A program made the translations under genes and the position numbers. Under the pieces are notes generated by a model. That model was not told the origin of the DNA and did not search any database. It saw nothing but the letters and a program-made list of their open reading frames with translations. Below are positions 17,300 through 26,037 of a DNA stretch of 64,000 nt, piece by piece (within the stretch, counting starts at the first letter, position 1; each line of letters begins with the position of its first letter). Origin of the DNA: Lachnospiraceae bacterium. Its GTDB lineage: Bacteria > Bacillota > Clostridia > Lachnospirales > Lachnospiraceae. The DNA lies in assembly GCA_022790855.1 (NCBI GenBank), contig JAAVYA010000006.1:62001-126000 (forward strand). Direction: 5' to 3'.

Positions 17300-17335
17300 A
17301 AGCTGTTGGAAAGAGAATGATTCTGACAGCTTTTT
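17300..17335 (+). terminator. probable terminator of the P-loop gene
   Basis: AAGCTGT (17300-17306) pairs with ACAGCTT (17326-17332), and an inner GAA/TTC pairing extends the stem. The distal arm runs straight into TTTTT, as in a Rho-independent terminator about 80 bases after the stop codon. Confidence 0.55.
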
Positions 17336-17369
17336 CCTGTCATAAAAACATATTTCTTATGACAGGAAA
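17333..17369. repeat. 13-base perfect inverted repeat
   Basis: TTTCCTGTCATAA (17333-17345) and TTATGACAGGAAA (17357-17369) are perfectly complementary around an 11-base loop. The repeat lies between two convergent genes (P-loop protein on plus, DUF378 protein on minus) and is 28 bases past the DUF378 stop. It may terminate the minus-strand transcript, but neither side has a clean T-run on that strand. Confidence 0.5.
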
Positions 17370-24396: not shown

Positions 24397-24434
24397 GGGA
24401 GACACGCCAATTTAGGAGGGCGTATCTCCCTTTT
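24397..24434. terminator. terminator at the convergence point
   Basis: GGGAGACACGCC (24397-24408) pairs with GGCGTATCTCCC (24419-24430) with one mismatch, followed by TTTT on the plus strand. It ends the cytidylate-kinase-like transcript. The distal arm doubles as the last codons of the recombinase gene on the other strand, so the two convergent genes share this structure. Confidence 0.82.
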
Positions 24435-25494
24435 GATGTTTCTGGAAAATACTTCCAGAGAAACTTCCCGCCAGACGGCGGCGTTCATCATCGGTGGCAG
24501 CATAATGCTGCCTGGTGGTTTCCACGCTTTTATGTCCCAAGGCATCGGCCACCAGATAAATATCTCCGGTTTCTTTATATAGATTTGTTCCATATGTACT
24601 CCGCAGCTTATGCGGAGTGATTTTCTTGTTGATATGAGCGGCTCCGCTGTATTTTTTGACCAATTTCTCCACGGCACGGGTAGTAAGACGGGTGTATTTT
24701 AAGGACAGAAACAAGGCGTCCGCATGCTCTGGACTTGCTTTTGCTGCAATTTGCTCCCGTTCCAATTCCAAATATTCCATTAAGGCGGCAGACACTTCAT
24801 CTCCAAAATATACCGTAGATTCATTTCCGCCTTTTCGAATCACCCGGATGCATTGGTATTTAAAATTAACGTCTTTTACATCCAGACCTACCAGCTCGGA
24901 CACACGTATCCCGGTTCCCAAAAGAAGCGTTAGGATCGCAGTATCCCGATATTTGGTTTTCTCGTGAAGGGCCAGCTGCTTTGATGTCATGGAGCTTCCG
25001 CTTTCGGCAGCGGTGATCAAATCGGCAACTTCATCCTTATCTAAATGGATAATGCTTTCTTTATGCTTTTTCGGGGTCTCGATCATAGACGGCGGATTGG
25101 TAGTAATAAATTCTTTTTTATAGAAGTAATTATACATGGTGCGAAGAGCGGATAATTTTCTCGCTTTTCCTTTTTCCCCATTGGTTTTCTCAGCGCCTTC
25201 CATATTTTCGTAAAAAGAAAGATACGCTAAGTATTCCTCAATGTCTGTGGAGGTCAGCTGATCTAACAGGGAAATGGGAATGTCATGCATATCCTTATCC
25301 TTAAAAATCGGATTATTCTGCTGTATAAACTGAAAAAATAACCGCAAGTCATATGCATAGGCCAAACGTGTCCTGGAAGATGTATTCCTTGTATCCAGGT
25401 ATCTGAAATAATCACTGCAGAATTTCGGCAGTTCTTTTAAAAGAAGATTTAGCTTGCGTTTGTTTTCCAAATTGATCTGTTGGCTGTATTCCAT
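24412..25494 (-). CDS. xerS: XerS/XerC-D-like tyrosine recombinase
   Basis: Tyrosine site-specific recombinase, most likely the chromosome dimer resolvase. The 360-aa protein has an N-terminal SAM-like core-binding domain ('TSSRTRLAYAYDLRLFFQFI') and a catalytic domain with all active-site residues: Arg in 'GTGIRVSELVGL', Lys in 'RKGGNEST', HxxR in 'TPHKLRSTYG', His in 'LGHKS' and Tyr in 'TRQHYAA'. Length and the adjoining palindrome (25,507-25,540) resemble the single-recombinase XerS/difSL system rather than the ~300-aa XerC/XerD pair; no phage or ICE genes are nearby. ATG 25494 follows AAGGAGG; the track start at 25527 lies in the palindrome. The specific name XerS is an inference. Confidence 0.82.
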   Translation of the reverse strand: MEYSQQINLENKRKLNLLLKELPKFCSDYFRYLDTRNTSSRTRLAYAYDLRLFFQFIQQNNPIFKDKDMHDIPISLLDQLTSTDIEEYLAYLSFYENMEGAEKTNGEKGKARKLSALRTMYNYFYKKEFITTNPPSMIETPKKHKESIIHLDKDEVADLITAAESGSSMTSKQLALHEKTKYRDTAILTLLLGTGIRVSELVGLDVKDVNFKYQCIRVIRKGGNESTVYFGDEVSAALMEYLELEREQIAAKASPEHADALFLSLKYTRLTTRAVEKLVKKYSGAAHINKKITPHKLRSTYGTNLYKETGDIYLVADALGHKSVETTRQHYAATDDERRRLAGSFSGSIFQKHQKGDTPS

Positions 25495-25506
25495 AAAAAC
25501 CTCCTT

Positions 25507-25540
25507 ATCAGTTCGCAAAATCAACATTTCGCGAACTGAT
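25507..25540. other. dif-like 34-base palindrome upstream of the Xer gene
   Basis: ATCAGTTCGC and GCGAACTGAT are perfect outer arms. The inner layout is AGTTCGCAAAA / TCAACA / TTTCGCGAACT, an 11-6-11 pattern as in dif sites. Each arm resembles known dif half-sites: AGTTCGCAAAA matches the E. coli XerC arm GGTGCGCATAA at 8 of 11 positions. It ends 12 bases before the recombinase ATG, next to its AAGGAGG site, so it would also form a hairpin in the mRNA leader. difSL lies next to xerS in streptococci in the same way. Confidence 0.7.
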
Positions 25541-25590
25541 AGATCTATACATATCCTGCTCTCTCCAGCTCCAGGATACCTTATTCTTGT

Positions 25591-26037
25591 TTATAGATGG
25601 TCTGAATCAAGAATGACCGTAAAGGGTCCGTCATTACATAAAGATACCTTCATATCAGCACCGAACTCGCCCATTTGGACTACATCAATTTCAGTTTGGC
25701 AGGCTGCAACGATATGGTCGTATAATTGCTGGGCATGATCCGGAGCTCCGGCATTGATAAAGGACGGACGGTTGCCGCGTTTACAGTCTGCATACAGGGT
25801 GAACTGAGAAATTAACAGTAATTGCCCCTGGACATCCTTAAGAGCCAGGTTTGTCTTGCCGTTTTCGTCTTCAAAAATCCGAAGGCCGATCAGCTTTCGG
25901 ATCATCTTATCCGCGATTTCTTTTGTATCTTCTTTTGAGATGCCAATCAAAACAAGATATCCTTGCTGGATCTCTCCAATAACGTTTTCTTCTATTGATA
26001 CAGATGCCTTTGACACCCGTTGTATTACAAATCTCAT
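25591..26037 (-). CDS. dtd: D-aminoacyl-tRNA deacylase
   Basis: Hydrolyses D-aminoacyl-tRNAs (and mischarged glycyl-tRNA), removing D-amino acids from the translation pool. The 148-aa length is exactly typical. Signature segments are '[19 protein letters not shown]' (SQFTLYA catalytic motif) and '[15 protein letters not shown]', with the N-terminal '[16 protein letters not shown]'. ATG is preceded by AAAGGAG. It lies upstream of the recombinase gene on the same strand, 96 bases away. Confidence 0.97.

Follow-up and report, generated by a model that had tools for sequence, protein, structure and literature searches.

In this work, a palindrome was found directly upstream of a gene for a Xer-type tyrosine recombinase in the window, i.e. 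the whole 64-kb stretch of Lachnospiraceae DNA that was analysed. Judged from its sequence, position and conservation, the palindrome is very probably a chromosomal dif site, and the adjacent gene would encode the cognate Xer recombinase that resolves chromosome dimers. This dif-type site (25506..25541, no strand assigned) consists of two near-identical inverted arms and a 6-bp centre and was recognized by repeat search, by its single copy and by its retention in relatives. The inverted repeat (25,506-25,521 / 25,526-25,541) has 16-nt arms with 15/16 pairs (94% complementary) and a 4-nt spacer, and it is also readable as a 12-6-12 or 11-6-11 layout around the 6-bp centre; on the gene strand it is TATCAGTTCGCGAAA TGTTGA TTTTGCGAACTGATA. 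Palindromes of 15/16 pairs with a spacer of 3-8 nt occur at just two places in the window, where the mean chance expectation from first-order Markov versions is 0.03, and the 34-base 11-6-11 palindrome reported in the first-pass annotation was thus borne out. The only other such palindrome (17333-17369, 5-nt spacer) lies between ORFs and is probably a terminator. An arm match to E. coli dif at 8 of 11 positions, also reported earlier, was confirmed for one arm against the E. coli dif sequence, and it carries little weight alone.

The recombinase gene (24412..25494, minus strand), defined by its ORF, profile models, alignment and a structure model, encodes 360 aa with the catalytic set R-K-H-R-H-Y. 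Its start is the ATG at 25,494, with the ribosome-binding site AGGAGG (25500..25505, minus strand, read from the sequence) five bases ahead of it and abutting the palindrome; with this start, the previously described interval of 12 bases between palindrome and gene is correct. A longer, 371-aa ORF from 25,527 begins within the palindrome and finds no support in near relatives, in which the site lies ~65-150 bp upstream. All catalytic residues are present as had been claimed (R197, K221, H295, R298, H321, and Y331, numbered from the Met at 25,494), and they are invariant in 38 relatives. The AlphaFold model of the protein (mean pLDDT 87.6, pTM 0.62) matches XerA, XerD, and XerH structures. The upstream neighbour of the site is a dtd-like gene (25591..26037, minus strand), which was named by eye from the sequence and is retained in near relatives. 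A match to the recombinase was detected in 195 of 200 Lachnospiraceae genomes, mostly as an orthologue with ~50% identity or more.

Copy number and location both agree with the general features of dif/Xer sites, in that the site occurs once per chromosome, between genes, and at the shift point of the GC skew. The genome to which the window belongs (3.2 Mb, 72 contigs, 92% complete) carries the window on a 175.5-kb contig, and pattern searches of this genome at up to 3 mismatches, which had been proposed as a check, returned a single copy and no second one. On this 175.5-kb contig, cumulative GC skew climbs until window position 24,716 and drops from there on, and large ORFs are mostly on the plus strand before ~24.4 kb and mostly on the minus strand after it; skew and ORF orientation together mark 24716 (no strand assigned) as the replication terminus. 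The site was placed at the terminus because it lies only 0.8 kb from this turning point. Across 11 genome regions, the median distance of the skew maximum was 486 bp to the site vs 9.9 kb to the gene, and in one genome (G144), in which the gene is 56 kb off, it was 113 bp from the site centre. The skew peak therefore stays near the site even where 10-56 kb separate it from the gene, which means that the terminus goes with the site. The recombinase gene itself lies at 0.47-0.51 of the chromosome from dnaA in seven genomes, and at ~0.34 of the contig in an eighth (G178), the assembly of which splits dnaA.

In the closest relatives, the palindrome is kept between dtd and the recombinase gene while its flanks have diverged, and in two loci (L007 and L013) both arms are altered together, CAGTTCG/CGAACTG having become CACTTCG/CGAAGTG. 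Three more site classes were recognized near the recombinase orthologues of relatives, namely the first ATGTCGCAAAATCATAATTTTACGACAT, the second CAACTATTCGCGAAAGTCTAGTTTAACGAATAGTTG, and the third TCTATACGACAAATACCGATTTTTCCAAAAGA; a seed profile built from six sites missed other classes, and wider patterns were used instead. The second class is present in 70 of the 200 Lachnospiraceae genomes, in 68 of them as a single copy (backward pattern 0/200), and the third occurs once each in 28 other genomes (backward pattern 1/200), so that these two patterns together place a site in 98/200 genomes. The window's class or the first class was found in ten further genomes, including the window's own. Related sites thus occur in at least half of the sample; about half of the 200 genomes had no site by the patterns used. 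Outside Lachnospiraceae, such a site lies upstream of the recombinase orthologue in three genomes (G241, G271, and G322). As in dif/Xer systems generally, two inverted arms surround a short variable centre: 48 different central hexamers were counted among 65 sites, the arms of which are partly fixed by the search pattern.

The first-pass annotation had proposed a dimer-resolution system with one recombinase. A dif-type site with a dedicated adjacent recombinase is strongly upheld by the single copy, the terminus, the conserved and co-varying arms in relatives, the conserved recombinase, and the failure to find a classical dif. As for the single recombinase, the near-symmetric arms and the relatives described below speak for it, but the window's own genome keeps a second protein above the curated XerD cut-off (L002, G000:C18:106973-107833). 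When other xer genes were sought, as had been advised, no XerC-like candidate of the clostridial kind was found in this genome beside XerD. The curated XerC cut-off was not used as a test, since 0/148 Clostridia genomes reach it. It may be supposed that in the window's genome the site is a true dif recombined by the encoded recombinase together with the retained XerD, one per arm. XerD above its cut-off in the own genome and in 4/13 genomes tested would suit such a division of labour; however, the arms of the site are almost identical and co-vary, and relatives with the same arrangement have no comparable XerD, which makes the participation of two proteins improbable. In five genomes (G035, G138, G178, G185, and G191), no protein scored clearly above the window-type recombinase on XerC or XerD models. 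Several complete relatives are therefore without a better XerC/XerD candidate, and one recombinase should suffice there. In the window's genome, the single recombinase likely acts alone, although we only infer its exclusivity since the XerD gene is retained. A classical dif elsewhere, accompanied by xerC/xerD, had been named as evidence that would speak against one recombinase; with the one pattern tried, the classical Firmicutes dif at up to 2 mismatches was no more frequent than the backward pattern. Two side observations concern the recombinase repertoire of other genomes. About forty XerD-like recombinases of ~300 aa each are scattered through one Lachnospiraceae genome (G149), and in another locus (L218, G229:C1:130900-133700) the window-type recombinase adjoins a clostridial XerC-like gene, possibly an intermediate between the systems.

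We hypothesize that when sister chromosomes are fused into a dimer, the two site copies would be brought to the septum by FtsK, each copy would be bound by two protomers of one recombinase, and the recombinase would exchange strands where the arms border on the 6-bp centre, by which two monomers would be restored. FtsK with a gamma domain is encoded in all seven genomes tested, the own one included. What the data show is this domain, the site and its single copy at the terminus, the conserved arms with a variable centre, and the co-occurrence of the recombinase; binding and recombination of the site by the recombinase, its partner-free action, and the drive by FtsK are what we infer.

The first-pass annotation had also suggested autoregulation through the mRNA leader, and this was set against the position of the site in relatives. 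The site and gene were both located in 94 genomes, on the same contig in 86, with the site upstream in 84 and on the opposite side in two. The 84 upstream sites were within 500 bp of the gene in 34 genomes, at 0.5-2 kb in 29, at 2-10 kb in 16, and beyond 10 kb in 5. A prophage inserted at the site was rejected as the cause of large gaps, because no second copy was found in G144, G024, G193, G190, G087, or G177. The comparison of leaders across orthologues, which had been recommended, thus gave a divided result: the closest relatives keep the palindrome between dtd and the gene, but most relatives do not have it in the leader. Autoregulation found no support, as in most relatives the site lies outside the leader, 0.5-56 kb off and twice on the other side, and therefore repression would be at best a by-product in the window's species. 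More generally, the palindrome could be an operator only, bound by the recombinase or another regulator that controls the gene, with no recombination there. Such a role would fit a palindrome that abuts the ribosome-binding site in the window and is no more than 500 bp upstream of the recombinase gene in 34/94 genomes. In other genomes, however, the site is separated from the gene by 0.5-56 kb, is found on a different contig, or lies to the opposite side of it, the skew peak tracks the site and not the gene, and the site also stands beside phage terminase genes with no such recombinase; its occurrence once per genome and a 6-bp centre that varies suit a crossover site. Since the terminus goes with the site and not with the gene, little is left for an operator without recombination, and we regard it as very unlikely. 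The site is thus very probably a terminus-borne recombination site and not an obligate operator. An RNA role, in which the recombinase mRNA would use the palindrome as a terminator or a leader hairpin, is hardly credible, for although the near-perfect 16-bp stem in the 5′ leader would fold, no T-run follows the palindrome, and it is the coincidence with the skew peak that is conserved and not the position or orientation relative to the gene.

The dif-type site was also found beyond the main chromosome. A second site copy in one genome (G076; L361:9694-9723) is on a contig (C51) that encodes an apparent Rep_3-type initiator, and the skew maximum of this contig is 15 bp from the copy, as would be expected if the contig were a second replicon that has a dif of its own. 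The second-class pattern CAACTATTCGCGAAAGTCTAGTTTAACGAATAGTTG matched at least 120 viral contigs (L230-L349), and its backward pattern matched 0. Many of the site-bearing viral contigs encode a large terminase, a P22-like portal, and head proteins, as tailed phages do, and ~40 bp separate the site from a small terminase gene in several of them; examples of viral sites are L252:8971-9000, L261:4761-4790, and L305:4014-4043. The small viral contigs were considered as inovirus, and this was rejected, for they are mostly pieces of tailed phages and in a few cases pieces of host chromosome (L233, L283, and L287). Integrase families were absent from the 25 commonest families among 95 near-site proteins of 11 viral contigs, no pair of sites flanking a prophage was found in 200 genomes, and the site was not present in three phages with a related terminase from the annotated collection. 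One site-bearing phage contig encodes an FtsK/SpoIIIE-like protein (L339:5758-6498), and this family was seen in 14 of the viral loci examined. It seems to us an evenly balanced proposition that Lachnospiraceae and several other families of Clostridia possess an old, separate single-recombinase Xer/dif lineage, and that the site on tailed phages and secondary replicons lets the host recombinase resolve their multimers or integrate them. If true, tailed phages would have a host-type dif next to their small terminase gene.

Lachnospiraceae belong to the dominant bacteria of the gut and rumen, and the site could serve as an exact terminus marker for their genomes and predict which mobile elements could use it. 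A further lineage would also be a test case for the ordering of strand exchange by one recombinase at a near-symmetric site, and through the genome in which a XerC-like gene and the new type are adjacent (G229), a switch between the systems becomes studiable. No published description of this site type was found in the dif/Xer literature searched, including PMC3025954, PMC2731167, PMC5357621, and PMC8138268; further papers may exist. In the reviews and surveys consulted, single-recombinase dimer resolution is described for streptococci/lactococci, epsilon-proteobacteria, and archaea only.

By comparison with the XerCD/dif system of most bacteria, other Clostridia among them, the single-copy terminus site, its two arms and 6-bp centre, and the FtsK gamma domain are alike. 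On the other hand, XerCD/dif combines an XerC-type and an XerD-type protein, whereas only XerD and no XerC-type partner was found in the own genome; the arms of the window site are nearly equal, and the one pattern tried gave no classical Firmicutes dif above its control. Furthermore, a clade that unites the XerC-like and XerD proteins of Clostridia excludes the window recombinase and is separate from its group with 97/93 support; this support applies to that split and not to the deeper order, XerS included. The XerS row of the tree, a sequence that scores 558.9 bits on the XerS model, has a very long branch and was given no weight. With the XerH/difH system, the window system shares a single recombinase of similar length and inverted arms around a variable hexamer near the terminus, and difH in the epsilon-proteobacteria is in many cases, though not in all, next to its gene (PMC2731167). 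The arm sequence is different, however, and identity is ~21% in the fold alignment; XerH matched the window recombinase by phmmer (6.6e-12) over residues 184-351 only, and the tree has no XerH row. The XerS/difSL system of streptococci and lactococci, with which the first-pass annotation had drawn a parallel, is alike in its one recombinase of ~356-360 aa, its site next to the gene, and its location at the terminus. XerS is also the best NCBIfam model for the window recombinase (212 bits; four relatives 180-203), but these scores of 180-212 bits are under its cut-off of 267 bits. Moreover, difSL spans 31 bp and has arms that differ in length around an 11-bp centre (PMC5357621), while the window site has a 6-bp centre and near-equal arms, and relatives often have their window-type site at a large distance from the gene. 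The parallel is strongly upheld for a dif-type site with a dedicated recombinase encoded beside it. Given the sub-cut-off XerS score and the different layout of difSL, the window system is therefore best placed as a single-recombinase variant of Xer/dif and not as a member of XerS.
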